From the NCBI RefSeq assembly GCF_963675165.1, contig NC_087381.1, forward strand, positions 7,410,419 to 7,474,418: DNA of 64,000 bases, written 5' to 3'. The stretch's first letter is position 1. Each line of letters opens with the position of its first letter. This document shows, in pieces, positions 7,489-56,082 of this stretch. The notes under the pieces were generated by a model. That model was given only the letters and a program-made list of their open reading frames with translations. It ran no database searches and had not been told where the DNA came from. The translations under genes were made by a program, and so were the position numbers. The DNA comes from Halichondria panicea (taxonomy: Eukaryota > Porifera > Demospongiae > Suberitida > Halichondriidae).

Positions 7489-8541
7489 TTAGGCTGCACA
7501 TCTGGACTCCTCGAAATGGCTGTAGCTGAAGTCAGTGGCGTACGGTGTTTCCACTCTGTAGTCAGTGTACTCCCCGAATATCACTGGACTGTTGACTGTA
7601 TCGTCGAGGATCTCGTACAGAGGAGCGGCCTGGTTTTGTCCAGCATAGAGACAGTACTCCATCTTGTGCTCCCAGGTTAGAGGCCAGAGCCAGCCGACAA
7701 AAGATCGCTGTGGCTCGTTGGGATGGTTGGTGGTTACGACATAGTAGCCGTCGCTGTTGACTCCATCCTGCACAGGTCCAGTGTAGGGCTGTACTTGGAT
7801 AGGGACGTTCCAGAATTGACCTGCACAATAAAAATAATAATTATTGTACTATCGGAAACATATCAGCATCAATCAACACTTTTACACATCGTAAATCACC
7901 CACATGACTGTAGATTACCATCTTTCTATACCCCTATAATTATACCTATATAACTATACATAGATACTATAATTCCTACTCACCCAGCAATCCGTGCGAC
8001 CGTTCAGCAAGGTCCAGTCCTCTAGCAATCACGAACCGAATATTATTAGCGTGGAAAATGATTTCATTCTCGTCAGTGCTTGCTCTGCTCCAGAAGGTTG
8101 TGTTCAGACATGACACCCACATCACAAGATCGATATCGGCACAGTTGGGAACCACGATCCTCACACGACTACGGAACCTTCGAACGGTTATTCCAGCATT
8201 TATGTAATCCGTAACAGTGACGTTATCAATAGATGCACTGCACTGGTCCAGGGAAACTTCAATATTCCTACAATTTCCATTTGCATCTGTAGCTCGCACG
8301 TATATGGCGTCAACGATGTTGATATCCTCATTTGGTATAACTCTAGCATAGCGAGCGTTCACGCTGACACAAGCGTCACTGACAAGATTGAACAAACCAC
8401 CGTCGTCACCGTGCACCTCAAAGCATAGATTAATAGGGTCGTTCTCTCCAACATTCATGATCAAAGTCTTGTCGGGCACGTTTAGTGGCACGGAGAAGAG
8501 AGGGTCTCCAGATACGGTATCGTTGACTGTCATCAAGGTAA
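7489..8541 (-). CDS. Terminal ITIH-like module B (alternative last exons?)
   Basis: Two exons, 7984-8541 and 7489-7820, are joined in phase 1 through GLLG|QFWNVPIQV and end with TAA. The first opens behind an acceptor in phase 1 with TLMTVNDTVSGDPLFSVPLN. It contains LCFEVHG, NLVSDACVSVN, RVRIVVPNC, LVMWVSC and SHGLLG; the second has YCLYAGQNQ and a short tail ending SRCAA. It parallels module A (8809-9788) exon for exon. It has no signal-peptide or CCP exons of its own, because module A lies between it and the CCP array. Splicing from the last CCP exon (9963-10181) straight into 8541 would keep the frame and give a 1790-residue protein with a different end. A separate gene with an unrecognised 5' exon is the alternative. 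Confidence 0.65.
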
Positions 8542-8808
8542 CTGTAGAAATGCATGAGAAATATATACATATATAGTGTGTGGATCATGACTACCATACA
8601 ATCGTATACACACAGTGCACAAATATTATAAAGAGATGCACAAGCGCCTGCGCCAGTACGATTTAGGAGAAAGCAATATCATTGAAGCACACACCACACA
8701 GCATACGTAATTCAATAATACTATTATAGACTAGCTATAAAAAGTTCTAGTACATAACTACAAGTTTTACCATCGGAAAAATGTTAAACAGTAAATTGAA
8801 AGGTTCAA

Positions 8809-9788
8809 CTACAAACACATATTAGAATCGAATTGATTGTACGCGAAATCGGTTTCGAACTGTCCGGAAACAATATAGTCGGTGTAAATTCCCTCGATCA
8901 CTGGTCCATTAGCAGGACCAGCCGGCACCTCGTACACACTACCAGCGTGCCCATCTCCGGCATACAGACAATACATTCGTCTTTCGTATTCCCAGCTAGG
9001 GAATCGCAACCAGGCAATAAATTGCCTAGGGGAATCGCCTGGGGAATTGATAATTACGCTGAAGGTGGCAACGTCATCTTCGACTTGAGGCTCTGTGAAA
9101 GGTCCGTTATAAGGCACCACTTGGATAGGGATATTCCAGAATTGGCCTGTGGAAATGAGTAAAAATATAATGTAATCAGTGATCACAATCTACGTATGAT
9201 TATACAATAACTCACCGAGAATACCGTGTGATTCTTCACGGAGATTCAGTCCGCGGGCAACCACAAAACGAATTGCCTCTCCTTGGAAAGTGAATTCGGT
9301 TCCATCAGCGTTAGTACGATTGGTGCTCCAGAAAGTTTGCGTCTGACACATGACCCACATGACCAATCCTCTAGTAGAGCCGCAGTTTGGAACAGCTATA
9401 CGCACTCTGGAAGGATACTTTCTCACCATAATATCGTTCATCGAATACATATCATTAATCACCACACCGTCCACTGTAGCCGTACACTGATCCAGCAACA
9501 CTTCGATATTGTGACAAGACCCGTTGCTATCAACTGCTCGAACTGAAATATCATCAACAATGTTTATATCTTCCCCAGCGGCAATTTGTTGGTAGTGAGC
9601 ATTAACACTGACGCAATCGTCACTCACAAGGTTAAAGTAAGCGTCTGAACTGCCATGAACTTCGAAACAGAGATGAATAAGATCGTCTTCCCCCAGTGGC
9701 ATTATAGCTGACTTGTTTTGAACATAGAGGGGAACGGTCATCAGGGGGTCTCCAATCACAGTGTCGTTGACTCGAACGACGTTGATAA
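8809..9788 (-). CDS. Gene 1 terminal ITIH-like module A (last two exons)
   Basis: Exons 9216-9788 and 8809-9146 join as HGILG|QFWNIPIQV. The module opens VNDTVIGDPLMTVPL and continues with LCFEVHG, NLVSDDCVSVN, a Cys-containing ATVDGV region, RVRIAVPNC, LVMWVMC, FVVARGLNL and SHGILGQFW. The last exon has YCLYAGDG and VIEGIYTDYIV and ends NMCL before TAG. The order Asp-Pro site, NLVSD..C.SVN, HGL-GQF, G-Y-x-DY matches my recollection of ITIH C-terminal domains (DPHF, NLVSDP, HGL-GQF, DGHYKDY). Autocleavage at Asp-Pro is therefore possible but inferred. Confidence 0.65.
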
Positions 9789-12700
9789 CTGCGTGTGTGT
9801 GTGTGCGTGTGCGCGCGTGCGCGTCTATGTGCATGTACAAGGTATGTAAATGTCCATGTGGTACTGTGCAAGGGAAATGATGTGTTGTACTGGTATATAA
9901 TATAATGTACTCGTATAATTATAATAGCTATTATAAACAACATTTGTCATACTATCACTTACGGACACATCTTGGAGGCAGGTTAGTGAACACTCCCACA
10001 GCATCGCCGTTCAAATCGTCAATACAGGTTCTCGTCTCAGATCCTCCCTGGGTAATATCCAGCCTAAAGCCGTCATTGCAAGTGTAAGTGGCCACGGTGC
10101 CCAGGTCATAGTTAGACGTGGTGTCGGGAGCGTAGGTGATCATACCATTGGTAACTTGTTCAAGGGGAAGACACTCAATGGCTGCATAGGAATAATTTCA
10201 TGGTCATACAATCCTGTAATTATGTAAGTACATGCATTGAGCGAATAAATAATTAGAATAAGCTGACAACTTACGGATACATGCTGGCGCTTGCCCACTA
10301 AACACTCCCTCTGCATCATTGTCCAAATCATCAAAACAAGTTCTAGTCACAGATCCCCCTAGAGAGAGGTCCAGAACAAACCCAGCATTACAGTCGTAAG
10401 TAGCCACAGTGCCCAGATCATAGTTAAATGTGGTGTCGGGAGCGTAGGTGATGAATCCGTTGGCAATGGTCGTTAGAGGAGAACACTCAACAGCTGTGTG
10501 TACAGAAAAGAGAACAAGTGTAAGCAGTATGTACTTGCACTAACAGTACTAGCGGGTTATTTTTGTATTGTGGAAATTTTCGTAGATTTCATATTGAAGA
10601 GCATCATACGAAAATTAAAACTACGAAATTATTCTAGACTCAACGTCACTATTCTGAGTTGTAAGAAAATGTAGGTTTTGTGTGTTAGCACCAAACAATG
10701 GTTAATGGCAGCCAGGGCAACTACTCTTGGGATTAATACGGGGGTATCCCTTTTCTCACACTACCAGCTCGGGCTTGAGCACAGCATTTATTGTGCCCCT
10801 CGTTGTGATCTTTAGGTGAGGCATAGCCTCTTAAAGTTTACCCGTTCGGGTAGCGTGGCTTCACACGCCTTGGCACGCTACTGAACGGGTGGTGGCTTTA
10901 CATCGCCTTGTATTTGGGCCCAAGTTATTAGTTTATGGATTGGTGCTCACCTCTTGCCAAGTGGTCTGAATATTTAAATGAGATTGTTCGTACGAAAATT
11001 TGCACTAACGAAAATTACCCGCTATTATACGGTACATAAAATAGCGGCAAGAATATTCCAAGAAGTTCATGATGGATAACTTACGGATACAGCTTGGCTC
11101 CTGACCACTCCACACTCCAATCGCATCCATTCCATTATCGTCAATACATGTTCGTACTTGACTAGCCGCAGTTACATCAAGAAAGAACCCAGCATCACAA
11201 GTGTAGGTTGCATCAGTTCCCAGATCAAAATTAGGGGAGATATCGGGAGAGTAGGAGATCATGCCATTAGTAAAGGTCGGTAGAAGAAGACACTCGATGG
11301 CTGTGTGTACAGAAGAGTTAATAATAATAATAATAGCGATACAATGGGAAAATTGCAGTAGTAAACCATTATATTGATTACCAACTAAATTCTGACAACT
11401 TACGGATACATGCTGGTGCTTGTCCACTAAACAATTATTGTGCCCCCCGTTGTGATCTTTAGGTGAGTCATAGCCTCTTAAGGTTTACCCGCTCGGGTAA
11501 ACCTTAAGAGACTATGAGTAGGTGTACATAAAGTCAGACGTACATGAGGCTATATAATTATACACCAATGCTAAAATCAGAAAATTGTTGACATTGGACC
11601 ACATAGTTATGGCTGTTCAACCCACCCCCTCCCCATGGTTTAATCAATGGTTCAGTTACTCTTCAAGCTGCCATAACTGGATCCAATTTCAACGATTTTA
11701 TGACTTTCTGAAAGCTTAGAAAGAGACGTTTTAAGATAGACAATTATTTGGCCACCATACATGCATGGAGTTCCAAAATCCTGACAAAAATCGACAGCTA
11801 GTTTGAGACAGATGATAATAAGACAGTACTTACGGACACAGGTTGGTTGTGAGCCAGTGAACTCTCCTAGATCGTCCAATCCATTATCATCTTCACAAGT
11901 TCTGACCTCATTTCCGACAGATAAGTCCAAGAAAAACCCGTCATTGCAAATGTAAGTGGCAGTTGTTCCAAGCATGTAGTTAGGAGTCATGTCTGGACCA
12001 TATTCAATCCTGCCATTTGGTATGCCAGGTAGAGGGGTGCACTGAATGCCTGTAAACAATATTTTTTGAAGGATCATACAGTCTTTTTTGTTAGTTATTC
12101 TGGGATCTCATAAATTATACCACACTTATGTCACCACTAATTGATCTCATTGGTCAACAGCTGTAGGATATATAGAATATTAGCATACAGCCCAGGCATG
12201 CACAGTTTTTCAAGTTGTTTTTTAGTTGTTCAAGAAAGTAAGCAAAGAGAAAAGAGCCATGCTTGACGGTACTAAGACTCAAAGCGACGGCAGAAACAGG
12301 GAAGGTGCTCTCCAACAAGATGGCTAAGCTTCCATGGGTCCATGGGTGCGATTTAGATACATTTTTTCGAAGAAGAGCTTGCAACTCCAGTAAGGGACGT
12401 CAAATGGTCAACACTTGGGCCAAGGAAGCTCTTGAGCATCTGTAGGAGTCGACATGTTGCTCAACTAGCTCTTTGACGGCTGCAAAATTCGGCATAGTCT
12501 TGTTCTTTTTGCAGTCTGCATCGTGGATTGAATTGTTGCTAGGGGGAGATCCTTTTATAGTGCTGCGGTCAGTGGCGTAGGTAGAGGGGGGCTGACGGGG
12601 CTAGAGCCCCCCCTTTTGTGCTCCATCAACTCCAACTACCATAAGACCTCGATTTAAGGCGACCCTCCAAATATGCAACACCCAGGAGCTTCAGCAATTT

Positions 12701-15700
12701 TCTGACCTCTAAAAGTAGCGACAGCTGCATTGACAATTATTTTTTAATGTCGCGTTCTAAATAGAGGTAAATGTAGCCACTCCCTAGCCTCGATTGTAGC
12801 CCACTGGAAAATCAGTGTTTTTAAGCGACCTAAAATCGAGGCAAGTAGACTCTGTAAAGTTACCTCCAATTAGATGCGACCCTCTAAATATGCGACACCA
12901 GGACTTCAATATAATTTTTCAACCTCCAAAAGATGCGACCTCTGGCTTCGTAATTATTAAAAAGTGTCGCTTTAAATTGAGATCTTACGATAAGCTTGAA
13001 TCACTGTGATCTGTCAATCTATTCTGCACTGTACGCATGCATATATAGTTACTAGAATGATGTCATTCAATGGAATGTGGGCAGGGCCATCTAATGCGCA
13101 TGCTGATTGCTGAGGGAAAGTGATGACCTTTTTTTGGATGTTATTCAACGCCTGCTCTGGCCCTACTCAACAACCGATTTGTATACTTCTCAAAATCCTG
13201 GCTACGCCACTGGCGGTCGGGTGGTATAAGTCAGATATGCCACACCTACTCGGAGGATATGTACCCATATATCCTCCGCTACCATGGTTACATATCCCCC
13301 GGCTACGCATCAGAGTAACCACGGTAGCGGAGGATATGGGTGCATATCCTCCTCTTAGGTGTGGTATATCCTATACTTATAATTATGTATCCCAATTTCA
13401 AAAATAAATTGGGTGTCTCATAATTATATTGTATGTTCTGATGATAGAGATCTATAAGCTGCAGTACTTACGAACACAAGCAGGCTCCTGGTCACTAAAC
13501 ACTCCCACAGCATCATTGTCTCCATCGTCAATACACGTCCTCACTTCAACACCAATGGAGGTATCTAAAGTGTAGCCCTCATTGCAGCTATAAGTTGCTG
13601 TAGTACCGAGCTCAAAGTTAGGGGTCACGTCTGTAGCATAGACGATCATTCCATTGGTGAAAACGGGCAGAACACGACACTCAATAGCTGTATTAAGAAT
13701 AAAGAACACGTCAAATGAAATCCCACAACAAATTATTATGCTACGTACATTTAAAGCTAGGGCATCTGCAATTAATCTCAATCTGGACAATTATACTTAC
13801 GGATACATCTTGGTGCTTGTCCACTAAATACTCCCTCTGCATCATTGTCCAAATCATCAAAACAAGTTCTAGTCATAGATCCCCCTAGGGAGAGGTCCAG
13901 AGCAAACCCAGTGTCACAGTCATAAGTAGCCACAGTGCCCAGATCATAGTTAGGTGTGATGTCGGGAGCATAGGTGATGACTCCATTGGTAATGGCCGTT
14001 AGAGGAGAACACTGAATGACTGTACAATAGTTAGCCATAATGTTATCCAAAAAATGCAGTGGAGGTATAAATTATAATAATTTTTATAGGGACATATCTC
14101 ACTTACGGATACATCTTGGAGCCTGTCCACTAAACACTCCCTCTGCATCATTATCCTCATCATCCACACAAGTTCTAGTCATAGATCCCCCTAGGGAGAG
14201 GTCCAGAAAAAACCCAGCGTCACACTCATAAGTAGCCACAGTGTCCAGATCATAGTTAAATGCGATGTCGGGAGCGTAGGTGATGGCTCCATTGGTAATA
14301 GGGTCGAGGGGAAGACACTCAATTGCTGTAAAAACAAACTGTAAATGGTAAATGTAAAATGCAATAGCAAGGTTACTTAACAAGTGCAGCTTCATAAATT
14401 AAGAACACAATAACTACGCACAAATGAACCTTGACCTACAGATACCACCATCACTGTTAACCTTATTGGGCAGTCTTGAAAGCTGGCAATGACTGGCAAT
14501 GAAATTATTCAGTAATGTATACGTATGTATGACTTACGAATACATCTTGGAGCTTGGTTATCAAACTCTCCAATAGCATCCAGTCCATCATCATCCACAC
14601 AAGTTCTCATCTCAGATCCCCCTAGAGAGAGGTCCAGAAAAAACCCAGCGTCACACTCATAAGTAGCCACGGTGTCCAGATCATAGTTAGATGTGGTGTC
14701 GGGAGCGTAGGTGATGACTCCATTGGTAATAGGGTCGAGGGGAGGACACTCAATGGCTGTGAATGGTAAAATGTACAATGCAATGGCAAGGTTACTTAAC
14801 AAGTACAGCTTCATAAATTAAGAACACAATAACTACGCACAAATAAACCTTGACCTACGGATAGCCATACTGGCCACCATCCCATAATCAGTAAATAAAT
14901 GTATATAATTATATGACTTACGGATACATGTTGGAGCTTGGTTATCAAACTCTCCAATAGCATCCAGTCCATCATCATCCACACAAGTTCTAAAGGTAGA
15001 TCCCCCTTGGGAGAGGTCCAGAAAAAACCCAGGGTTACAGACGTGAAAGGCCACAGTGCCCAGGTCATAGTTAGGTGTGGTGTCGATAGCGTAGGTGATA
15101 ACTCCATTGATAATAGGGTCGAGGGGAAGACACTCAATAGCTGTGTGTACAGAAGAGTTAACAATAATAGCTGTACAGTGGGAAAATTGCAGTAGTAAAC
15201 TATTATATATGGATACCAGACTAAATTGCATGTTGTCTTTTTAAAAGCTGACAACTTACGGATACATATTGGAGCTTGTCCACTAAACACTCCCTCTGCA
15301 TCATTGTCCTCATCATCCACACAAGTTCTAGTCTCAGATCCCCCTAGGGAGAGGTCAAGAAAATACCCAGCGTCACAGGCATAAGTAGCCACAGTGCTCA
15401 GATCATAGTTAGGTGTGGTGTCGGGAGCGTAGGTGATGACTCCATTCTCAATTCCATCGAGGGGATTACACAGAATGGCTGCATCGGACAAAGATTGTCA
15501 GTATTCTTAGAATGCAAGTTTGCAGCTTTCATCTCACTAGTGAAGTAATAACTTACGTTGACACGTTGGTGGTACTCCACTGAAAGTGCTGTCACTCTGA
15601 CAAACTCTGATCACATTTCCGATAAGAACGAACCCAGGGAAACAGATGTGCTCAGCGTTAGTTCCCTCGAGGTATGGAGCCATCGTGTCAGGTGAGTACT

Positions 15701-18700
15701 CAATACGACCATTAACAAGCAATTCCAACTCTTGACAAACAACTACGGGAGAAAAAAAATGTTGTATATCACTTGCAAAAAAATCTGCATCCCCAAGTTT
15801 GAGCACACGTCCTCTCAAACACCAGTCAAACTGGCTGTGTCATTGAACTACTGGCAATTGCTACATGTTGTGAGTATAACCATGAAACCACAGCGAAGTA
15901 TGACTGTAGGCGCAAATCTGCGTACTACGCAAACGAAACAGAAACTTAAATTTTGCCTCTACTGTATGAGTAGCTAAAATTACAGCATAGTGTGTATATA
16001 CATGTACATACCTTCGTCCTCGATGATGGTAGCGTTGGCAGTGCCTGGACTCAGGGACACTCTCTCCCCACTAATGATGGTTAGTGTACCTTGAAACATT
16101 TCATTATTCTCAAATATTGTATCATTGATCAATTCAACTGCGATCTGTATGGTTTGCATGCCTGCGCTCAGAATGATTGGCATGTTCATAATCGAAGTGT
16201 AGTCCACACCAGCCATAGCAGCAAAATCTGTGTGTGTGGGTGTGTGTGATGTGTGTGTGTGTGTGTGTGTGTGTGAGTGGGTGGGTGGTAAAGGTAAACG
16301 TGTGCATCAAGACTCTTACCTGCTATCAAACCGTCCACAGTTGAGAAGGACAACTCAATATCTCTGTCTAATATATGGCCACTAGTTACTCCCACAGTGA
16401 ATATCATTGGTCCTTCGTCCTCCCTGGCAGAGTATGGCGGGTTGATAAAACCAACAGTCACCTCTGTATGGGTTAAGTAATTATAGTAATGTATTGTGTG
16501 TACATGATTGTATCCAACTGTCACCTCTGTACGTACATGTAATGATTAGCAATAATAAAACCAAGGAATCACCACTACAATTTACCGGTATCGTCCAAAA
16601 TTGTGATGTTACTGCGAGCTGGATCGAGCACAAGGTTGTCAGGTAAACTAGTGCCTTCAAGTTCAATAAATCGCAGAGAAAACTGCTCTTCAAATTCGTA
16701 ACGGTTGTCCTCTGTTATCTCAACCATGAAGCAACTTCGACGACTAGTATCACTAAAGAACAAAAAATAGGCGAAACGGGCTCCGGTCACTTCCGTATAG
16801 TCATCTCCATCTGTGAATCAAACAGAATGCAATACACAGCAATGTAGTATGCATCTCACAAACTATACCTGCTGTGCCTCGTACAGTTTCAACTCCAATA
16901 CTGACGGTTAATGTTCCTAATGGAGTGTTTTCTGGAGGTTCAAACATTACCACGCACACTTCCTGCGTTCCAATTCCTTCGTTAACTATGTACGAGGTTC
17001 GCTCGAAGCCAATGCGGAATCCTGAAAGGTTAGTATTAATTACTACTAATTATATTAGTTATAACTCACGGTCATCATCTTCAATAATGATGAAGAATTC
17101 GGGATATTGGGGGAGGGTCTCAAACCCTGGGAACATTCCATCAGTGGGTAGACTTAGTCTGAGTTGAGCAGCTTCTGTTATCTCAGGCAGTTCGTCCGCA
17201 AATATATCAAAATCTACAAACACATTATTCTCCTCTGGTTCTATTGATCGCAAAGTTGATGATGGAATAAAGAAATCATTGTCCTCTCCGCCAGCTGAGG
17301 GAGTTGCAGTTCCAAGTCCCTCTGGAGCAGTTTGGAACAAATTAACCACAAAGCTGATGGTTTGTTCAGTGACATTGCCTGCTCCTTTGATAATTTGAAT
17401 GTTAGGAGTAGCTTCTACCTCTGGATATGTTGTATTTGGTAGGGCAAATCCAATAAAGATATCTGCATGTGTACATGATTGCATTAATTTGTTATTAACT
17501 CATCTACATAATATGCTTTAACCCACCATCGTTGTCTATAATGTCGATGCGAATTATATCGCCGCCATTGCTTTCAATTGAAGCTAATGGTGGCACATTA
17601 TCTGGATCTTGAAAAGTTAAAGTAACCACAAAATACTCCAAGGCTTCGTCAATTAGATCATCATATATCAGTACATCTCCAGCCAAAAGAATCTCTCCAC
17701 CAGCAGTAAAATTCAGTGTGATGGGTGTAGTAAAGAAATCTATCCTGCCTTCAACTACAGTCAGAGTGATAATAATGATTATTGAATTACAAAGAAACCT
17801 TACAGCTTACTAGTGTTAGCTCTTGCAAATGGTCTGGTAGTTGGTAGAGGTCTAAAATCTTCAGTAGCGATCATGGGTGTCAGAACTAGTGAGATATCGG
17901 AGGCCAGTTCTACCTCATTGGACACTGTCACCTCAACGGCGATCTCTCTTCTACCCTCATCCACAACTCTGTCGCTTTCTCTCAGCCGAAAAACGAGGGC
18001 TAATAATAAAATTAATTTGATTTGCGTATATAATTTGCATAATTTTGGTTACCTGTGCTATCCTGTATAATGAACTCCTGCCTACTCCGAAAGAAAACAT
18101 TTGGCAAAGATGAATCAAAAAGTGCTCGGTTAGCATTGGCCACATTAAGCAGTGCCAACTCCAACACAAAAGTCTCATCTGGTTCCAATGCCACTCTGTC
18201 TGCTTGGAAGGTGATGGAGGTAGTTCCGCCAGGGTTGAGAGGTAGAGAAACAACACTCTGACCTATACCAAACTCCTCCTCTGAAGCTGTTAGTGTGGAA
18301 GTAAGCAACATAAACTCCATTATCTATTTCTATTACTATAACAATACCTGTTCCTTCCCCATTGTAGTCAATGGCCATCCTAAGCTGTGCATTAGATGGA
18401 CCCTTGAAGTATGCAAACGGAACATTATAAGGAAATTGGGCCTCTGGATTAGTGAAGGTGTCCGAGCCAAAGCCGTACACTGCAAATAATTATAGATACA
18501 ATCACTATACACACCAGTATAATTATATGGACAGTATGCATTATTATATGTTTGTGAATGTAAAGCAAAACTTTGATAAATATTCTAGCTATTCACACTT
18601 ACCTATGCACTGGAAGCATTGACCACCATCACTAGTAGTGTAAGACATTCCAGCATCATTATTGACACAACAGTCCTCAGCATTGGAAGAAAATCCCCCC

Positions 18701-19633
18701 ACAACAGGAGTAGCACAGTCAGAATCAGTGAAGCATGCCAATTGGGCTTGAACTGTATGCAATGTAACCGATATCAGGAGTGTAGTCAGGATTTTTTGGA
18801 AGAGGGGCAAAACTTGTCAGCCGCGCCTTTCGTCATAACTTAACTTCTCTACTTAGTTGGGTTTGGCCTGATGTTCTATCGGCAAAGAGGAAGCTAGTTT
18901 AGCAAAGAACAAGAACTGTCTAAATTTAGACCAGAATAGCTCACAGTTTAGGGAATAAATCGTTTTGTTTGCCTACTAGCTAGCTAACTGCAGCAAGATT
19001 CGGAAGAAAGGGGGTGCTCAGCAGATACACTAACCTGAGCTGAGTAGTAGAGATCCAGAAAAAGGGGGGGCATTTGCCCTCTTTGCCACCCCCTGCATGG
19101 CTACGCCACTGGATATGTACATGCACGTAATAATACATTCAAAATATATAACGAGTGATGCAAGCTGCACTGCGCTAGCTATGTTAATGCCTCTCGCCAT
19201 GTTTTGTTTTACTCAAAGGTTGTAGAATGTTATACAATTATGTGAAAGATAGTTTGCTTTGTGTTATAATTATTGCAGTCATTATAGAAGAGGAGCTCTA
19301 TAGTTTGCAACTGTTAAGCAGTTACAGCTAGAATCGACAGTCAGATTTACCATATCCATCGTGCGGTTACACCTCAAGGCATATAATAATATTATACAGA
19401 AAATAATTGAGCAGCTTAACCTTTTACTTATTATAACTGCAGTACACACATGCATGCATGAAAAACTAAACAAGTAGTACACATACACACACACAAACAT
19501 AGTATATATATATATATATAGGTTGCCTTTTTTCAGACTTTATAATATTAGGGTTACTCTCTGTAGCTACTTTAAGCATACCAGCTGATGTGCTGATGAG
19601 AAAGATAGCCAGTGACAGTAGCAAACGTTCCAT
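8809..19633 (-). CDS. Gene 1: secreted Calx-beta/CCP protein with ITIH-like C-terminus
   Basis: Exons from 5' to 3' are 19582-19633, 18603-18752, 18348-18479, 18053-18286, 17811-17999, 17527-17754, 17070-17462, 16869-17021, 16586-16810, 16320-16463, 16012-16227, eleven CCP exons between 15742 and 9963, then 9216-9788 and 8809-9146. All introns are GT-AG and all internal exons are multiples of three in phase 1. The total is 5394 bases: 1797 codons plus TAG, with no stop or shift. The order is signal peptide (MERLLLSLAIFLISTSA), Cys-rich exon, about five Calx-beta-like modules, 11 CCPs, ITIH-like module. There is no membrane anchor, so it should be a secreted, disulphide-rich extracellular protein. 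Ligand and role cannot be read from sequence; matrix, adhesion or recognition is the family-based inference. The model is mine and has no transcript support. Confidence 0.8.
9963..15742 (-). CDS. Gene 1 CCP (sushi) array, 11 exons
   Basis: One CCP per exon: 15557-15742, 15260-15478, 14922-15140, 14538-14756, 14107-14325, 13801-14019, 13472-13687, 11834-12049, 11085-11300, 10275-10493 and 9963-10181. The pattern is IEC..L..ITNGVITYAPD, NYDLGTVATY.CDAGFFLDLS, RTC..D...D..GVFSGQAP.CIR, with the four CCP cysteines and the Trp position mostly replaced by Phe. Lengths of 186, 216 or 219 bases, all phase 1, let exons be skipped or duplicated without breaking the frame. The middle exons are nearly identical to each other, which points to recent exon duplication. 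Confidence 0.85.
10551..11028. mobile_element. TIR element, GCGGGTAATTTTCG family
   Basis: Lies in the intron between two CCP exons. It starts AGCGGGTTATTTTTG and ends CGAAAATTACCCGCTA, inverted to each other. A second copy is at about 61983-62178. The inside holds the GTTGTGATCTTTAGGTGAG block that recurs at 11432-11520. Confidence 0.6.
11404..11431 (-). pseudogene. CCP exon remnant (3' end only)
   Basis: A donor (CC|GTAAGT) and the last nine or so codons of a gene 1-type CCP (ending CIR) are present. The rest is replaced by the repeat at 11432-11520. The array once had, or partly gained, a twelfth exon here. Confidence 0.65.
11432..11520. repeat. Copy of an internal repeat block with hairpin
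   Basis: Shares GTTGTGATCTTTAGGTGAG and CATAGCCTCTTAA with 10796-10880. AGGTTTACCCG and CGGGTAAACCT form a hairpin around CTCGGGT. Confidence 0.6.
12138..12540. repeat. Dispersed repeat shared with 22.7-23.0 kb
   Basis: TTGATCTCATTGGTCAACA, CAGGCATGCACAG and AAGCTCTTCTTCGAAA-like segments occur inverted in the 3' flanks of genes 2-4 (for example 22750-23000). The plus-strand open frame at 12263-12445 lies inside the repeat and shows no domain. Confidence 0.45.
12570..13212. mobile_element. TIR element, CAGTGGCGTA family, with a nested element
   Basis: Ends are CAGTGGCGTAGG and GGCTACGCCACTG. The flanking 5-bp duplication GCGGT lies at 12565-12569 and 13213-13217. It sits in a gene 1 intron. 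A second element (12642-12988) lies inside it. Confidence 0.75.
12642..12988. mobile_element. Nested TIR element (TAAGACCTCGATTTAAGGCGAC)
   Basis: The left end TAAGACCTCGATTTAAGGCG and the right end CGCTTTAAATTGAGATCTTA are inverted repeats. Several GCGAC/GTCGC motifs lie inside. It is inserted in the 12570-13212 element and is therefore younger. Confidence 0.6.
13224..13380. repeat. Long inverted repeat (hairpin element)
   Basis: Arms of about 65 bases (GCCACACCTACTCGGAGGAT through CTCCGCTACCATGGTTA) are mirrored to the right with few differences, around a spacer of about 25 bases. Confidence 0.65.
16012..18479 (-). CDS. Gene 1 Calx-beta-like region, nine exons
   Basis: The clearest modules are split over two exons. 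16869-17021 plus 16586-16810 reads RIGFERTSYIVNEGIGTQEV, then DDYTEV, FMVEITEDN and NITILDD. 16320-16463 plus 16012-16227 reads VGFINPPYSAREDEG, then GVDYTS, VELINDTIFE and ATIIEDEG. These show the usual Calx-beta signs: V-x-F start, ED/NEG, xDY, a D..E strand and I.DD at the end. Exons 18348-18479 with 18053-18286, 17811-17999 with 17527-17754, and the long 17070-17462 are more divergent but keep the EPDE or DEALE stretch and the closing I-x-D[DN]. These folds often bind Ca2+; individual binding residues were not assigned. Confidence 0.7.
16221..16281. repeat. (TG)n microsatellite in gene 1 intron
   Basis: A GT/TG run of about 45 bases with a few interruptions, directly upstream (minus strand) of the acceptor of exon 16012-16227. 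Confidence 0.8.
18603..18752 (-). CDS. Gene 1 exon 2: Cys-rich N-terminal segment
   Basis: Encodes VQAQLACFTDSDC, SSNAEDCCVNN and GGQCFQCIG, with the same cysteine pattern as 6601-6741. It lies directly after the signal peptide and before the Calx-beta region. Reading past the donor would give only KCE and a stop, so a short secreted isoform by intron retention is conceivable. The domain was not recognised. Confidence 0.75.
   Translation of the reverse strand, partial: FKPNWHASLILTVLLLLWGDFLPMLRTVVSIMMLECLTLLVMVVNASSA
18775..19111. mobile_element. TIR element, CAGTGGCGTA family, in gene 1 intron 1
   Basis: Left end CAGGAGTGTAGTCAGGA, right end TGGCTACGCCACTG. The target duplication GATAT lies at 18770-18774 and 19112-19116. 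Only 22 bases separate it from exon 2. Confidence 0.7.
19582..19633 (-). CDS. Gene 1 exon 1: signal peptide
   Basis: ATG at 19633; MERLLLSLAIFLISTSA, then donor G|GTATGC in phase 1. The exon length and residues are conserved in the orphan copy at 5593-5644, which supports this start. Confidence 0.85.
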
Positions 19634-19790
19634 CTTGGTCTCAACTCTTTCAATTTGTGATACCTGCTCAGAGCAGATAATGACTGACAGGAGGAATGGA
19701 AATGGCTAAAATGCAACAGCCTTCATGTATTGCACTTCACCACAGGAAATGAAGCCACAATGATGCATTCACTGCATGTGTTGTGGTAAT
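19634..19790 (-). promoter_or_regulatory. Gene 1 5' flank, conserved in inverted copy
   Basis: Immediately upstream of the ATG. It shares the palindrome CTGCTCAGAGCAG, CATTTCCAT and CTTCATTTCCTGTGGT with 5470-5592. No TATA box or initiator could be assigned. Confidence 0.35.
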
Positions 19791-21051: not shown

Positions 21052-21101
<50 letters not shown>

Positions 21102-23415: not shown

Positions 23416-24522
23416 TCACCCAATAACCACGGAGTTGCATCTTCTCTCGTTAAAGTGAGTAAAAGCAAAATCAGTACCATAGGCTGTATCCACAATATAG
23501 TCTGCATACGTGCCCTCAATCACAGGGTCGTTAGGACTCTCAACCTCGTACACGGGCCCAGCTTGTTGGTTCCCAGTGTAGAGGCAATATTCCCGTCGAT
23601 ATTCCCAGGTGAGAGGGTACAGCCAAGCAGTGAATTCGCGCCTCTCATTGGGATGTTCAATCGTAACTTGGTAAAGATTGTCAATGGATGCGGATGATCG
23701 AATGAACCCTGTGAATGGCTCCACGAGGATTGGGATGTTCCAAAACTGGCCTGTAGTGATGTAATACAGTAGAAGAGTCAATTTAGGCAATGCATGGACT
23801 GTAACCTATGCCGTTATAATTATTATAATTAGATAAGATAGAAGGGTCATTATAACTATTAAGGAAGTAATAATTATTATTGTCACACACACAATTTGTC
23901 AATAATAAATTGTAGGACTCACCAATTATTCCGTGTGATCTTTCTCGTAGATTAAAACCTCTTGCTATCACGAACTTGATCATGTCAGCTTGAAACGTCA
24001 GCTCTGCTCCATTGTTGTCAGTACGGAATGTGCTCCAGAATGTACTCTGACGACAGAATACCCACATCACCAGATTGACATCTTCGCAATTTGGGACCAT
24101 GATACGAACGCGATTAGTATACCTTCGAATGCTGATCCCATTGGCCTGATACATATCAGGAATATTTGCTCCATCAACACTTGCAGTGCATACACCACCT
24201 TCGTTCAGGGCAACTCTAATGTTCCTACACCCTCCTACATTATCTGTGGCTCGCACGTGAATATTATCAATGATATTTATGTCTTCTCGTGGTTCGTTGG
24301 GTTGTACTAGCTCGTAATGTACATTCACGCTAATGCATTCATCACTCACAAGGTTAACGAAAGCATCTCTGCGACCGTGAAGCTCATAGCATAGATTTAT
24401 GATATCGTTGGGGCCTATATTATTATTGATGCTGGCTTCAAAGAAAGATGTCTTGTTATCAATGTTGAGAGGTACAGTCATCAGTGGATCTCCAATAGCC
24501 GTATCATTCACAAAATTATTAA
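23416..24522 (-). CDS. Gene 2 ITIH-like module C
   Basis: Exons 23923-24522 and 23416-23750 join as HGIIG|QFWNIPILV. Motifs are VNDTAIGDPLMTVPLNI, LCYELHG, NLVSDECISVN, EDINIIDN, RVRIMVPNC and WVFCRQSTFWS, then YCLYTGNQ and VIEGTYADYIV, ending CNSVVIG before TGA. It is nearly identical to modules D and E and fully open. The GDPL site is kept. Confidence 0.7.
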
Positions 24523-38677: not shown

Positions 38678-38722
<45 letters not shown>

Positions 38723-39306: not shown

Positions 39307-40420
39307 TTAGTTCAAAGTAACACTCTCACCGGACCCAGTAACCACGGAGTTGCATCTTCCCTCGTTAAAGTGAGTAAAAGCAAAATCAGTACCATAGGCT
39401 GTGTCCACGATATAGTCTGCATACGTGCCCTCAATCACAGGGTCGTTAGGACTAACAACCTCGTGCACGGACCCAGCTTGTTGATTCCCAGCATAGAGGC
39501 AATATTCCTGTCGGTATTCCCAGGTGAGACGGTACAGCCAAGCAGTGAATTCGCGCCTCTCATTGGGATGTTGAATCGTAACTTGGTAAAGATTGTCAGT
39601 GGATGCGGATGATCGAATGGAACCTGTGAATGGCTCCACGAGGATTGGGATGTTCCAAAACTGGCCTGTAGTGTAGTAGAAGAGTCAATTTAGGCAATGC
39701 ATGGTAAACATAATTATTTATAATACTGCATGTTGTATTATAATTATAGCCTTAGATAAGATAGAAGGGTCATTATAACTGGGAATTAATATTATTGTCA
39801 CACATAGAACTCACCAATTATTCCGTGTGATGATTCTCGTAGATTAAAACCTCTTGCTATCACGAACTTAATCATGTCAGCTTGAAACGTCAGCTCTGCT
39901 CCATTGTTGTCAGTACGGAATGTGCTCCAGAATGTACTCTGACGACAGAATACCCACATCACCAGATTGACATCTTCGCAATTTGGGACCATGATACGAA
40001 CGCGATTAGTATACCTTCGAATGCTGATCCCATTTGCCTGATACATATCAGCAATATTTGCTCCATCAACACTTGCAGTGCACACACCACCTTCGTTCAG
40101 GGCAACTCCAATGTTCCTACACCCTCCTACATTATCTGTGGCTCGCACGTGAATATTATCGATGATATTTATGTCTTCTCGTGGTTCGTTGGGTTGTACT
40201 AGCTCGTAATGTGCATTCACGCTAATGCATTCATCACTCACAAGGTTAACGAAAGCATCTCTGCGACCGTGAAGCTCATAGCATAGATTTATGATATCGT
40301 TGGGGCCTATATTATTGTTGATGCTGGCTTCAAAGAAAGATGTCTTGTCAGCAATGTTGAGAGGTACAGTCATAAGGGGATCTCCAATAGCCGTATCATT
40401 CACAATCACAAAATCACCAA
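39307..40420 (-). CDS. Gene 3 ITIH-like module D
   Basis: Open exons 39815-40420 and 39307-39665 with VIVNDTAIGDPLMTVPL, NLVSDECISVN, RVRIMVPNC, HGIIG|QFW and VIEGTYADYIV. The tail reads on past the position where modules C and E stop, to CNSVVTGSGESVTLN, because the local sequence was altered. It is nearly identical to modules C and E. Confidence 0.65.
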
Positions 40421-42276: not shown

Positions 42277-42444
42277 CGAGGCACACAGGAGGCAGGCGAT
42301 TTCATCTCCCTCCGAGTACACACTCTCGAGTCTCAAATCCGGACAGACGGTAACCATCATTACAGGTGTGAGTAGCAATTGTACCCACATCAAAATCAAC
42401 AGTCATATCAGGACCATATGTAATAGATCCGTTTGAAATAGCAA
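42277..42444 (-). pseudogene. Truncated CCP exon at an inversion edge
   Basis: The 3' part of a CCP (NGSITYGPD onward) with TGA where its copy has TGG (GGRWNR). Its 5' part is cut off at about 42444, where inverted DNA begins. Confidence 0.65.
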
Positions 42445-49044: not shown

Positions 49045-49102
49045 TAGCCTCGATTCCAGGCCGATTAAAATACGTATTTTAATCGGCCTTGAATCGAGGC
49101 TA
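49045..49102. mobile_element. 58-bp palindromic mini-element, copy 2
   Basis: TAGCCTCGATTCCAGGCC to GGCCTTGAATCGAGGCTA, centred on AATACGTATT. It is flanked by AGCCGGACT at 49036-49044 and 49103-49111, a perfect 9-bp duplication. It lies inside an intron of Ginger-like transposon 2, just after the splice donor. Confidence 0.85.
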
Positions 49103-50307
49103 AGCCGGACTTTACTATAGTATTTCTTTTAGTGTATTTGCATGATCTACTTATTTCTTATAGGTGAAAACATGTACCAAGTGCCAGTGTACCAATCCTA
49201 GACTACTAAAACCAGCATCGACTCTCCACCCAATACCAGTGACACCAAAGATTTGGCATACAGTTGGGATGGATTTGATTGGCCCTCTGACAGAGACACC
49301 CAGGGGCAACAAGTATGTCATAACGCTCACTGACTATTTCAGCAAGTGGGCGGAAGCAGCCCCACTACCATGGAGACAAGACAGCACATGGAGTAGCTAA
49401 ATTCCTTTATTCTGTAAGTGCACTATAGCAATAATTATTATGCACATCATTTACAGCAAATCAATCTCTCTTAATAGGTTATGTGCAGAATGGGCTGTGC
49501 AGAAGTCATCATCACTGACCAGGGTCGGGAATTCGTCAACTCACTCTCAGCCCAGTTGTACCAGAAAACCAACACCCAGCATAGAATCACTAGCGCTTAC
49601 CACCCTCAGACAAATGGATTAACTGAGCGGTTTAACCAGACTCTTTCTAGGTGTTTGGCTAAGACTGTGAATGACAACCAAGATAACTGGGACGAGAAGA
49701 TCAACACGATTCTCATGGGGTATAGGGCATCACGTCAGGCATCGATTAAGCATTCTCCTTACTTCATGCTCTTCCAAGCTGAGATGCGTTTGCCGATTGA
49801 TAGTGAGCTACTGCCCGGTCAGCCTGAAGAAAGAACCCCAGAAGAAGTTATTGAGCATCTTTTGAAGAGCCGTGAAGAAGTGTTCACAACAGCTGAAGCC
49901 AACATCAAGTCAGCACAAGGCAAACAAAAAGAAACGTATGACAGAAAACACCAGCAAGTCAGCACACTTAGCGTGGGTATGAAGGTTTTGCTGGAGAATA
50001 CTGCTCAAAAGCAGAGGAAGGGAGGAAAACTGGACTCAAGATGGCTAGGGCCATATTTCATCAACCGAGATTTAGGTAAGTTATTATTATTATTTTAGTG
50101 ATAATAGTTATATCTATACAGCCTGTATGTTATACAGCTAAAATGAATTCACATGCACTATATATATAATTAGATATATATTATATGTATATATAGGTAA
50201 GGGCTTATATGAGCTAAAAAACCTTTCTGGTCAAATACTCAAGAAGAAGGCGAATGTCTGTCGGCTGAAGTTGTTTAATGAAAGGAGCTTGTCTAGAGGC
50301 AATAAAC

Positions 50308-50570
50308 AGCCACCAGAAGGCGATCGGCCACCAGAGAGAGACGACCAACAGCCACCAGAGAGAGACGACCCACAGCCACCAGAGAGAGACGACCCACAGC
50401 CACCAGAGAGAGACGACCCACAGCCACCAGAGAGAGACGACCCACAGCCACCAAAGGGAGACGACCCACAGCCACCAAAGAGAGACGGCCCACAGCCACC
50501 AGAGAGAGACGACCAACAGCCACCAAAGAAAGACGACCCAAAGAAAGAGGACCCACAGCCACCAAAGAGA
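50308..50570 (+). repeat. 24-bp tandem repeat coding PPERDDPQ
   Basis: About ten imperfect in-frame units (CCACCAGAGAGAGACGACCC plus ACAG) forming the linker between integrase and protease. The unit differs from that of transposon 1 although the position is the same. Confidence 0.85.
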
Positions 50571-51703
50571 GACCCTAAGTCAAACAAATGTAAGACTAAG
50601 GATGTTTTCAAGAAGGTGAGTGTTGTGTCTCAATCAATTATCTTTTGTCTGTTACTGTACCTTTACTGTACTATTCTTACCTTATCATAGACCGAAGTAC
50701 AGTGGGTCAATGAGCTCTCTCTCACGGCACATGACAGAGAGATACTACTCGCCCCAACAGGCATGCTGTCTGACAAGCATGTGGATGCTGCAATGATGCT
50801 TTTAAGTGGCCAATTCTCCAAAACATCTGGGTTGCAATCGTCACTTAAAGTGCAGTTTCGTCTTGGTTTTCGCCCAATTGATTTGGACAAGCGCACGAGG
50901 GTTCAAGGTGAGTTATGTAACTGTCTCAAGATTATGAAACAATTCTTTTTATTATATATTAGGAGTGCAGATACTGTTTGTGCCAGAACGTCATCACTGG
51001 ATCCTGACAAGTTGTATTGAAGGCAGTGTCTATGTGTATGACAGCCTGCAGACAGGCACTAAGGAATTTCCTAGATCTGTAGAAAATCAACTACTCCAGC
51101 TCTACCATCCAACACTTAGTCCACCACAACGTCAAGAAATTGGTTTACTGGCAGAGTGTCCGCCTGTCCAACAACAACAAGAGTCATATGACTGTGGCTT
51201 ATTTGCTATTGCATGGGCGTACCACCTCTTAGTTGGAGACTCTTTAAACACGCTGACACTGGACCAGCAAAAACTCAGACGGCATTTGGTAAGGTGCTTT
51301 GAAAAGAAGAAACTATCAAGGTTCCCAAAATCAAGGCAGGAGACCCCTCGAAGTGAGATAGTGTGGGTATCTGTAGTAGCTTCGTGCTACCAGTGCATAA
51401 GGCCTGACTCGTGGAACGACATGGTGCAGTGTGATGGCTGCGACAGGTGGTACCACATGAAGTGTGCACGTATAAAGAAAGCTCCATTCAGTGACTGGCA
51501 CTGTAAAGACTGCAAATAGACTGCAAATAGATAGCTAGTTTTTCTGTTGTTGTACTTGTTCAAGTTTTGAGATGTATCATAATAACCGCTGAGATACTTT
51601 TAATAGGGGGGGGCCTAAACTTTTAAGAGGGGGCCCAGAATTTTAAAATTCTAGGTCCGGGGGGGCCCAATCTCATGGGGGGCCTAAAATTTTATGACAC
51701 CGG

Positions 51704-53116
51704 CACGATATTTGTTTTTTTGTACTTGTGACCCTTTACCAACTTTACGTGAACGCTGCGCATGGGCACAAGAGCTAGCTACACTCAGGATAGCCTAGAT
51801 TCCAAGCCACTGAGAAAGGCGAGGGGGCTGGAGTCGAGGCTACACTCAGGAACCAAGGCTCAGACAAGACACAGAGACTCTTGAGGCTACAAGCACGCCT
51901 ACAGCAGGTCAAAGCAGCTCAGATGGGGACCTTCTGAGCTTAAGATCACACAGGCACGCCTGCAGGAGGTCACAGCAGCTTACTTGCCATGTTTCACTTC
52001 CAAGTCTTGTGTTTTTGTGATAATAAACCTGCTAGCTCACCAGGACAAAACATAGATCAAAACCAGTCACTACGGCAGGTCAGAGCAGCTCAGATGGAGA
52101 CTTCTGAAGTTGCACAGGCACCTTTAGACAATACAGCACTACGGCAGGTCAGACCAGCTCAGATGGAAACTTCTCAGGCCACACAGGCACGCTTACAACA
52201 GGTCAGAGTAGCTTACTTACCCGGCAAGGATTGTTCACAGTATACTATCTTGTAAATTGGGTCCAGCAAGAAGTGATAATAATTATATCCTTGCTCCTCA
52301 TGTTAGTTTGTATAGCCAGCTCTTTCATGCTGAACTTTCACTCATACATATGTTTCACCTTGATGTTACACCACAGTCAAAGACCACAACGTACAACCCT
52401 ACACCACTCGAATAATTGTCACGGGTATACAGCTGGCACAGTCATATCTAATCCACTGAATCAGACTACACGGTTTATATTTGTTACTAATTTCATTTTA
52501 TTTGATAAATAAACTTACACATCATGCACTGTACTGTACAACAAATACACAAATTGCTTGCTCGCCCCAAACATGCTCTGCATGCTCCTAGTCATAATAT
52601 ACTTGGGTGGATTCTTACTATCATGCCCACAATTGGAACTTATCATGCTTCCAATTGTTAAGTGGTAAGCCAGGGCAGCTGTCTAGCTTCCACATTATTG
52701 TTAGCTACTGAGAACACAGTATAGCACATGCTTTTGGGAACAATAATCTGATCAGTGTGGAAGCAATGTGGTTACTCTCATGCTTCCACCTGTGCAACAC
52801 AACAGCTCACAATTGGTTTATCACAATAATTAAAGAACAGATGTACTGGGGTTAGCTTAATGATGTATAGTGAGCCAGTGAAACCTCTGTAAACCACATT
52901 ACAATTAAGGCAGACAAGAATGCCTGATATTGTTGACTGCTAATGGGCAGACATTTACTCAGACACTCTGGCTCTATTGCTGGTTGCCCCATACAATACA
53001 TACATAAGGAACCCATGCACCCTAAACAGAAGCAAAATTTAATATGCAATCTTGTGTTGTACTTTTTTTCAGATACCTGTCAGGCTGTACAGGTATACTT
53101 CCATGATTGCCTGATC
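51704..53116. other. Region right of transposon 2; minisatellite, no gene
   Basis: 51853-52215 holds imperfect 60-70 base units coding RLQQVRAAQMETS-like repeats in shifting frames. Such repeats resemble the N-terminal repeats I recall from helicase-bearing transposons, but no helicase is present. The rest has no domain. Confidence 0.4.
51791..51842. mobile_element. 52-bp mini-element, copy 3
   Basis: TAGCCTAGATTCCAAGCC to GGGCTGGAGTCGAGGCTA. It is flanked by CACTCAGGA at 51782-51790 and 51843-51851, again a perfect 9-bp duplication. The ends match copies 1 and 2; the core differs. Confidence 0.8.
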
Positions 53117-54182
53117 GCAAAAGGGTCATTCCATATCAATTCACCGAAATTTAAAACGTGACGTCTTCAGAATTGCACGAAACTTGGTATATGTATGAGG
53201 AATGTTATGATAACATCTCAGAAAAAATTTTGGATTTGTAAACAATATGACTGTTGAGGTCTTTCTTAGATAGACAGTTCTATAGCTAGCCAGTAGCCTA
53301 GGCAATTAATGTAACCTAGTCTATACTAGCGATTTACTTCAACTTAATACTCATAAAGATTTTTACCATGTGGTGCAGAGACCAACAACAAACTAAAAAA
53401 ATAGAGCATGGGGAGACACAGATAATTATGGACATGGAGATTTCTAGAACATTCCACTGATACATGTAGATTGCACAAGAGCACATGACAAACGTAAGTA
53501 GAACAGACATAACAGAGATCACATGAGAGGTGATAGTGTAAATCAGTTAGAAACTGTTAATATTGCATTCATACATCCAGATAAAAAATGCAGAAATTCC
53601 CAACTTTTAGAAACTGGCTGCTGTTAGTTAAACTGTAACTTTCTAACCATTAACATTCAAGACTAAGAATGTATATCATCTTGTTGCCCCAACCACGAAT
53701 ATTGCCTAAATCACACTACATCCCACAACATATCTCATGATCCCATTGGAATCCCAGAACCAAACTTGTCACGCTTCAAGATAATGGTATGAGGAACATG
53801 ATACACAAAAAATTACAGGAAAAAACAGCGCTTTTTGAGAAGCCAGAGTTCAAAGGACACTAATTAGATGCAATACCTAAAATTTATCAAGTGAAGCCGT
53901 ACAACATACCAAATGATGCGAAATTTCTTAGGCAAAAAGATGATATATATTCTTAGTCTTGAATATTAATGGTTAGAAAGTTACAGTTTTAACTAACAGC
54001 AGCCAGTTTCTAAAAGTGGGGAATATCTGCATTTTTTTATTAACTCAATCTCAGAAGCCATAAAATTAATTATTGTTTACAAGCCCAAAATTTTTTCTGA
54101 GATACCATTCCTCATACATTACCAAGTTTCGTGCAATTCTGAAGACGTCACGTTTTGAATTGATATGGAATGACCCAAAAAA
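53117..54182. mobile_element. Nested foldback element (TGGGTCATTCCATATCAATTC ends)
   Basis: Outer arms 53117-53250 and 54062-54182 (GGGTCATTCCATATCAATTC, GTGACGTCTTCAGAATTGCA) and inner arms 53585-53697 and 53935-54035 (AGAAACTGGCTGCTGTTAGT) are inverted to each other. It has no coding capacity. Only the right half exists next to transposon 1. Confidence 0.65.
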
Positions 54183-54967
54183 GAGATAGCTAAGTGCTGA
54201 TTTGGCTCAAAAAGTAATTCACTCGAAATGAAACAGGTACATTAATATAATTATGTACTCTCAGATTACGATATGAATGGTACCACTGCCCAGCCCAAAA
54301 TAGACCACTGTACCTGCACAATATCATACTGCACACACACACACACACACACACACTAGCTAGTTTACCTGCAACACTGCACATTGTATGATTGCAACAC
54401 TAGCTTGTTTGATTCAGTGACTATCTCCTGGCACACCTTAATTCCTACAACAATAAGAGGTGCATGCTGGCAAATGAAAAACACCTTGAAATCTGTGCAT
54501 GCCTGGGGCTGTATGTTTATCGTAACAACTGTTGACCAATGAGATCAATTTGTGGTAACGTGTAAGTGTGGTATAAAGATACTGCAACGCACGCCCATGA
54601 TCTAACCATTACTTATTATAGTCAAATCTATGGTCCATGGTTACTGTAAATAACGGCTTAGATACTGTTTTAGGATTACATCACGGCCAGGATACTAAAA
54701 CAAGCCCTTTTGGGCTTCCAAATCACGTAGAAACTTCTTATTATAGAACACTAATTTGTCATGCACAGAAGTGATCAACACAGATCACAAAACAATTAAG
54801 ACTAGTAGTCAAACTTCTCTCTTACAAAACACACACACACAAATTAACACACAAAAAGGAATAGCTACTAATTATTAGAGTTAGTATAATAGTAGGATAA
54901 AGTATCTTTATATCTACACTATACATTAACTGTTAGTTGTGTCAGTTCAAACTTGAATGTAACACTC
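54183..54967 (-). repeat. 3' flank of gene 4, shared with genes 2 and 3
   Basis: Near-identical to 38531-39306 and, from 54480, to 22915-23415. Contains an (AC)n run at about 54333-54357. Confidence 0.75.
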
Positions 54968-56082
54968 TCACCCAAAAACCACGGAGTTGCATCTTCCCTC
55001 GTTAAAGTGAGTAAAAGCAAAATCAGTACCATAGGCTGTGTCCACGATATAGTCTGCATACGTGCCCTCGATCACAGGGTCGTTAGGACTAACAACCTCG
55101 TACACAGACCCAGCTTGTTGGTTCCCAGCGTAGAGGCAATATTCCTGTCGGTATTCCCAGGTGAGACGGTACAGCCAAGCAGTGAATTCGCGACTCTCAT
55201 TGGGATGTTGAATCGTAACTTGGTAAAGATTGTCAGTGGATGCGGATGATCGAATGGACCCTGTGAATGGCTCCACGAGGATTGGGATATTCCAGAACTG
55301 GCCTGTAGTGTAGTAGAAGAGTCAATTTAGGCAATGCATGGTAAACATGACTGTTGTATTATAAAGCCTATACCGTTATATTATAATTATAGCCTTAGAT
55401 AAGATAGAAGGGTCATTATAACTGTTAAGGAATTAATATTATTGTCACACACACAATTTGTTAATAATAAAGTAGAACTCACCAATTATTCCATGTGATG
55501 TTTCTCGGAGATTAAAACCTCTTGCTATCACGAACTTGATCATGTCAGCTTGAAACGTCAGCTCTGCTCCATTGTTGTCAGTACGGAATGTGCTCCAGAA
55601 TGTACTCTCACGACAGAATACCCACATCACCAGATTGACATTTTCACAATTTGGGACCATGATACGAACGCGATTAGTATACCTTCGAATGCTGATCCCA
55701 TTTGCCTGATACATATCAGCAATATTTACTCCATCAACACTTGCAGCGCACACACCACCTTCGTTCAGGGCAACTCCAATGTTCCTACACCCTCCTACAT
55801 TATCTGTGGCTCGCACGTGAATATTATTGATGATATTTATGTCTTCTCGTGGTTCATTGGGTTGTACTAGCTCGTAATGTGCATTCACGCTAATGCATTC
55901 ATCACTCACAAGGTTAACAAAAGCATTTCTGCGACCGTGAAGCTCATAGCATAGATTTATGATATCATTGGGGCCTATATTATTGTTGATGCTGGCTTCA
56001 AAGAAAGATGTCTTGTTGAGAATGTTGAGAGGTACAGTCATCAGTGGATCTCCAATAGCCGTATCATTCACAACAGTACCAT
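54968..56082 (-). CDS. Gene 4 ITIH-like module E
   Basis: Exons 55483-56082 and 54968-55302 with TVVNDTAIGDPLMTVPLNI, LCYELHG, NLVSDECISVN, RVRIMVPNC, WVFCRESTFWS, HGIIG|QFWNIPILV and VIEGTYADYIV, ending CNSVVFG before TGA. Fully open. Confidence 0.7.

Follow-up and report, generated by a model that had tools for sequence, protein, structure and literature searches.

Sponge aggregation factors combine Calx-beta repeats with VWD and Wreath domains, and SUSD2/MUC4-type proteins have a NIDO-AMOP-VWD architecture. The heavy chains of inter-alpha-trypsin inhibitor (ITIH) are reported to be esterified by way of the C-terminal Asp to chondroitin sulfate and subsequently transferred to hyaluronan (PMC4661386); the C-terminal domain of ITIH (PF06668, ITI_HC_C) is predicted to be a VWD-like beta-sandwich (PMC10880436), sharing this topology with the VWD domains (PF00094) of FCGBP, MUC2 and SUSD2. 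Here we describe a family of modules, found at the end of probably secreted proteins of the demosponge Halichondria panicea, whose homology to the ITIH C-terminal domain, as a divergent relative, is supported by profile comparison. The starting point was a window of 64,000 nucleotides, the whole stretch of DNA analysed (contig NC_087381.1, positions 7,410,419 to 7,474,418).

Five two-exon modules, A to E, all on the minus strand, were located within the window, where the initial annotation had placed them. Exon 1 and exon 2 lie at 7984-8541 and 7489-7820 in module A, 9216-9788 and 8809-9146 in B, 23923-24522 and 23416-23750 in C, 39815-40420 and 39307-39665 in D, 55483-56082 and 54968-55302 in E; the acceptors of the first exons were picked by eye, each second exon ends with a stop codon, and the limits previously claimed for C and E were recovered unchanged. 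GDPL is present in all five (8498-8509, 9742-9753, 24482-24493, 40374-40385 and 56042-56053, respectively), as are NLVSD-x-C-x-SVN, RVRI-x-VPNC and SHG[IL][IL]GQFW, the last being split by a phase-1 intron (donor GTGAG, acceptor CAG). Only the fifth motif, G-x-Y-x-DYIV, falls short of the full sharing that had been asserted, being found in four modules, while A reads GEYTDYRV.

The modules resemble the ITIH C-terminus in their C-terminal position and, as judged from provisional ITIH sequences, in the order GDP / LCF / LVxD / VN / HGLLGQF / C / IxGxYxDYxV. Spacing is also similar, GDP and HGLLG being 154-186 residues apart in the modules and 157 in the provisional ITIH3 sequence. Eight Cys are near-invariant in the module; two of them align with both Cys of the provisional ITIH sequences, while about six are extra with respect to ITIH.

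A profile built from 23 members scored 57.2 against ITIH, compared with a mean of 14.4 and a maximum of 24.5 for 200 shuffles and with 14.3 for the reversed alignment. Profile-profile comparison gave a probability of 96.7 and an E-value, for a single comparison, of 4.1e-10; the ITIH letters used in these tests were provisional ones, to which Pfam assigns 235-253 bits. The module HMM scored 24.6, 21.1 and 14.4 bits on the three ITIH sequences, the match on ITIH2 being a single stretch from LCF to HGLIGQF. Local profile alignment spans the region from HGLLGQF to DYIV; pairing of GDPL with GDPH comes from a forced global alignment only, in which LCF also falls on LCF and NLVSD on LVxD.

In Pfam scans of 11 members, ITI_HC_C was the commonest match, found in 5 of them, with a best E-value of 0.0035 among 24,736 families; it was the sole match in four and second to Pterin_bind in the fifth (L012). 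No member reached the curated cut-off of PF06668, the best scoring 17.4 against 27 bits, and modules B and C had no Pfam match. The module consensus matched DUF7385 (E 0.055) about as well as ITI_HC_C (E 0.054). The Pfam ITI_HC_C model leaves out GDPH, LCF, LVxD and DYIV. Searching the genome with PF06668 yielded nothing at E 0.001 and, at E 3.27, a single weak hit that lies on a different contig, a result which is not evidence against homology, since the module copies themselves failed in that search. The proposed relationship to ITIH is supported by the profile-profile score, but with the Pfam cut-off missed and with one motif, RVRI-x-VPNC, for which no ITIH counterpart was seen, the other four having one. 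A sequence search of the PDB, with module C and with an 11-member profile, gave no match, and no title on ITIH-like domains in sponges was found in a literature search that covered a minority of subscription papers.

That the module is an ordinary VWD domain, or that its motifs resemble those of ITIH by chance, appears very improbable. GDP is found near the start of VWD domains as well, and the best local alignment places SHGLLGQFW near the GLIGNYNG of VWD, without reaching significance. Against five VWDs of the same genome, however, the module scores 15.3, inside the range of 100 shuffles (maximum 22.7), and no VWD match emerged from the Pfam scans of the 11 members. VWD as the parent family is thus unsupported, and the comparison with both families that the initial annotation had suggested turns out significant for ITIH alone.

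Among the matches listed, the module family comprises 45, fragments included, on three contigs (C1, C5 and C14). Exon 1 of module C matches the four other modules of the window and many more places in the genome, the best other copy at 8.1e-128, and dN/dS ranges from 0.095 to 0.313 across eight groups of close copies, one of which is a single pair; the resemblance among modules is, on both grounds, more than chance would give. Module A was considered as a possible relic behind B, a notion rejected by its dN/dS, which is 0.095 for the first exon and 0.132 for the second. In a tree of module copies grouping follows architecture, the labels of L001-L006, L012, L018 and L020 being assumed from their relatives. 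In bacterial and archaeal contigs 31 stretches fit the motif pattern, none of which is a relative by tblastn.

A stop codon follows the last Cys by 1-14 codons in all 22 second exons read, indicating that the module is probably a secreted C-terminal cap. A donor-like GTGAGAG stretch occurs at or just ahead of the stop in C, D, E and L001, and a further exon behind the stop is possible in this group.

As to the domains which precede the module, Pfam matched three of ten ORFs scanned in the A/B gene, all three on the minus strand: the last CCP (Sushi) ahead of module B at 9958-10197 (PF00084, E 5.6e-6), a second CCP at 15540-15839 (PF00084, E 8.6e-6) and part of a Calx-beta domain at 16578-16817 (PF03160, E 6.8e-8). 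More CCP-like ORFs of this gene were recognized by eye within 10207-15497; the one at 14836-15240 has no Pfam match at E 0.1. The ORF at 18592-18816, also on the minus strand and without a Pfam match, shows by eye a signal-peptide-like start and a Cys-rich part, and is likely the 5' coding exon. Upstream of C, D and E, CCP-like exons were identified by eye, so that Pfam bears out the reported CCP and Calx-beta context for the A/B gene, and inspection a CCP-like context for the other three.

Other copies feature different partners. In L021 and L022, on contig C1, the module is preceded by NIDO and VWD domains, and in L022 additionally by a sub-threshold AMOP and by EGF; these proteins resemble the SUSD2/MUC4 type, but terminate in the module where that type has its membrane anchor. 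The non-ITIH architecture that had been proposed is found in more than one form. Among the matches listed, VIT falls on contigs C9, C12, C13 and C16, never in the same gene or on the same contig as a module, and no VWA was detected in the 20 ORFs scanned with Pfam.

The Asp-Pro site, which the initial annotation described as kept, is indeed present in all but one of the 31 copies that can be read, or 30. Only L020 departs from it, with GQPF, and this copy seems damaged; L023 and L036 likewise seem damaged, yet carry GDPL. Since the 27-copy alignment had been selected by an expression demanding GDP and HG, its 27/27 is conditional, and the count free of this condition is 27 of 28 (one GQPF) plus L023, L035 and L036. 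GDPL codons vary silently. Near-invariance of the dipeptide argues for some use of the bond. What is not kept is the following His: none of the 31 copies has it, and in each of the 30 GDP copies the residue at this place is Leu or Val, whereas canonical VWDs of the same genome read GDPH in nine out of nine cases (L021-L023, L031-L034, L041 and L043). In FCGBP, a His-to-Asn change is reported to inhibit cleavage at GDPH (PMC10880436), and by analogy cleavage chemistry in the module is doubtful. The His of LCxExHG is a poor candidate as a substitute, being H in 22 of 27 copies, Y in 3 and R in 2. The HGLLG motif shows no such variation, its His being present in 27 of 27, but the selecting expression had required it there.

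Processing of the ITIH kind could make use of the conserved bond: cleavage of the chain at Asp-Pro would remove the module as a pro-domain and expose a C-terminal Asp, which would then form an ester with a glycan or protein partner. The six residues before GDP are devoid of Cys in 27 out of 27 copies, so that the cut pieces would be separable, as in ITIH; the pro-domains of HC1 and HC2 are given as 239 and 244 residues (PMC7170535), and 11 matches were obtained for the chondroitin-synthase family PF05679, of which six score 228-404 bits. Weighed against the universal loss of the motif His, the location of the listed module and VIT matches on different contigs and a search for the Link module, run with no positive control, that found none, we regard such processing as quite unlikely. 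Hydrolysis independent of His, nicking and stabilizing the domain while the pieces stay together, as after GDPH cleavage in the FCGBP VWD, would also fit the conservation of Asp-Pro, and in NOTCH3, a different protein context, Asp-Pro bonds are described as cleaved with no protease (PMC8390697). The FCGBP mutant speaks against it, however, as does the lack of a Cys before the site to hold the first strand, and we deem it unlikely. Release or linkage of the CCP chain at Asp-Pro, as originally suggested, is accordingly possible but not favoured: because Asp-Pro is kept but the His is lost, a permanent cap is the likelier role for the tail than a linker that cuts itself.

The module might also be identical, or closely related, to the Wreath domain already known from the aggregation factors of sponges, a tentative identification to which we give limited credence and which is compatible with the explanation preferred below. 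Calx-beta-like repeats lie, by eye, directly ahead of the module in L027 and L030, and the module genes would share with aggregation factors a special C-terminal domain and an arrangement as clustered duplicated genes. CCP chains are not known from aggregation-factor genes. No paper on a Wreath domain of sponges was found in the same literature search. Were the identification correct, the link to ITIH alone would be new.

We consider it probable that the module is related, though divergently, to the ITIH C-terminal domain and that it caps the end of secreted modular proteins, a domain in which Asp-Pro is mainly structural and not efficiently self-cleaved. Profile homology, a stop right after the domain, selection and more than one N-terminal architecture are observed. 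The eight Cys suggest a single disulfide-braced folding unit, which, through disulfide or non-covalent contacts, may anchor the CCP/Calx-beta chain within the matrix or oligomerize it there. Asp-Pro would have been retained from the common ancestor of the module and ITIH lines, efficient self-cleavage being improbable in the absence of the motif His. Overall, the observation of the initial annotation is confirmed, and its interpretation partly supported.

A relative of the ITIH terminal domain that occurs without VIT and follows CCP, Calx-beta or NIDO-VWD cores would mean that the domain has a history distinct from that of ITIH itself. Copies that retain Asp-Pro but have lost the His form a natural series, allowing a direct test of the roles of the His and of the bond. 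Speculatively, and with little probability, the pro-domain of ITIH may be older than ITIH itself. Early animals would have shuffled it as a module for C-terminal attachment; with its Asp-Pro, still lacking the His, cut or activated, it would have bound recognition chains of CCP and Calx-beta covalently to glycans or proteins of the matrix in place of a membrane anchor, and ITIH would later have adopted it, gaining the His.

The initial annotation had described five two-exon modules (A-E) in the window; motif search followed by exon assembly confirmed them and placed all five on the minus strand. In each module exon 1 contains GDPL and terminates at SHG[IL][IL]G with a GTGAG donor, exon 2 starts with (G)QFW after CAG and ends with a stop, and the intervening intron is of phase 1; exon 1 acceptors were picked by eye. 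Near 3650-3847, on the plus strand and thus opposite to modules A-E, there is what is left of a further A-type exon 1, incomplete, degraded and interrupted by a stop.

Searching the genome (G000) with exon 1 of module C resulted in 45 matches, including fragments and the query itself, exclusively located on contigs C1, C5 and C14. The analysis covered 26 match-bearing stretches (20 plus 6) and four longer C1 stretches. A set of 28 modules was collected, those of the window included; the 23 exceeding 250 residues are 37-94% identical to module C. Across eight groups of close copies, one of them a single pair, dN/dS ranges from 0.095 to 0.313. An N-D-[ST] glycosylation sequon is found at the module start in 26 copies out of 28 (24500-24511 in the window, for example), its Asn six residues ahead of the Asp of Asp-Pro. 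In all 22 recognised second exons the stop falls 1-14 codons past the last Cys, and a C-terminal position of the module follows from the sequence; the proteins bearing it are probably secreted. Because a GTGAGAG donor-like stretch occurs at, or just ahead of, the stop in C, D, E and the copy at L001, an additional exon may follow in this group.

On its own, the Pfam evidence for kinship with the ITIH heavy-chain C-terminal domain (ITI_HC_C, PF06668) is borderline. Module A matched this family with an E-value of 0.055, and modules B and C had no Pfam match; among 11 members scanned, five matched ITI_HC_C (best E 0.0035), none above the 27-bit cut-off. DUF7385 was matched by two of the 11, and VIN3_C and Pterin_bind by one each, the latter ranking first, ahead of ITI_HC_C, at L012. 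The module consensus scored equally against DUF7385 and ITI_HC_C, while its reversed control matched nothing. Counting ITI_HC_C as the only family, the best E-value would by our arithmetic be about 1e-7, but this family is not an independent prior, because the initial annotation had picked it from the same motifs.

A direct comparison was made with the C-termini of ITIH1, ITIH2 and ITIH3, as reconstructed sequences, which score 235, 253 and 244 bits against Pfam, from profile position 1 or 2 to 189. The model spans residues 35-37 to 221-223 of these sequences and so leaves out GDPH, LCF, LVxD and the DYIV at the end. In profile-profile comparison, the 11-member alignment reached a probability of 96.7 (E 4.1e-10), aligning from just ahead of HGLLGQF through DYIV. 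The 23-member alignment scored 57.2; 200 column shuffles averaged 14.4 (sd 2.5) and never exceeded 24.5, and reversing the alignment gave 14.3. The module HMM matched ITIH2 in a single stretch, from LCF to HGLIGQF (20.2 bits). Forced global alignment paired GDPL with GDPH, LCF with LCF, NLVSD with LVxD, HGLLGQF with HGLLGQF and the end motif with IDGxYxDYIV; no clear ITIH counterpart was found for RVRI-x-VPNC. Against five canonical VWDs of the same genome, the module profile gave no match, scoring 15.3 with 100 shuffles reaching 22.7, while ITIH scored 23.8, slightly over the 21.7 of its own shuffles. The proposed kinship is supported for ITIH at the profile level, and neither for VWD nor at the Pfam cut-off. 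The module might also correspond to the Wreath domain published for sponge aggregation factors.

In the gene carrying A and B, three of ten ORFs scanned matched Pfam, with Calx-beta and Sushi parts. At L025-L030, Calx-beta-like and/or CCP-like exons were seen by eye ahead of the module, with an EGF-like one at L025; tandem blocks of duplicated CCP exons are visible at L028. On C1, Pfam domains lie upstream of the module on the same strand, and probably in one gene with it: IgGFc_binding, NIDO and VWD at L021; NIDO, a sub-threshold AMOP, VWD and EGF at L022. By eye, L041 and L043 have a core similar to the NIDO/VWD/EGF one of L021, with a hydrophobic, membrane-anchor-like end replacing the module. 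A long Thr/Pro-rich mucin-like repeat (L043 5613-6818) appears in the ORF list of the NIDO-VWD-EGF region. VIT domains, the mark of ITIH, are found on contigs C9, C12, C13 and C16, where module matches are absent among those listed. The chondroitin-synthase family PF05679 had 11 matches, six at 228-404 bits; no Link module was found, in a search run without a positive control. A Cys-rich motif, CFTDxDC...DCC...GGQCFQCIG, recurs on the minus strand of the window at 18592-18816, where a signal-like start precedes it and Pfam has no match, and at 6536-6766.

A and B follow one CCP chain in tandem (7489-9788), each with its own stop, and paired first exons also occur at L002, L003 and L004; for the A-type copy at L002, the stretch yielded no second exon. 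Both types evolve under selection, with low dN/dS, and neither AATAAA nor ATTAAA occurs in the 1,300 bases downstream of the B stop. A and B are possibly alternative C-termini.

ITIH is cut at Asp-Pro, and the initial annotation held this site to be kept. This is true of GDP, followed by Leu or Val in 27 of 28 copies (the exception, GQPF at L020, is apparently broken) and by Leu in three copies read later (L023, L035 and L036, two of which look broken), but not of the His of GDPH, absent from all 31. GDPH is kept in all nine VWDs read by eye (L021-L023, L031-L034, L041, L043). Codons at the GDP motif vary silently, and none of 27 first exons encodes a Cys within six residues ahead of it. According to PMC10880436, cleavage of the FCGBP GDPH is prevented by Asp-to-Ala and Asp-to-Asn and inhibited by His-to-Asn changes, and ITIH3, 5 and 6 have their GDPH between strands 1 and 2 of a sandwich for which a VWD-like topology is predicted. 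Cutting of the module with covalent transfer is possible but rather unlikely, and less likely than a fixed cap. The strict conservation of Asp-Pro calls for a reason and speaks against an uncut cap, as does NOTCH3, whose Asp-Pro bonds are described as cleaved without a protease (PMC8390697). On balance, we lean towards the module being a fixed, disulfide-braced C-terminal cap with an ITIH-C/VWD-like fold, which would keep the recognition chain in the matrix.
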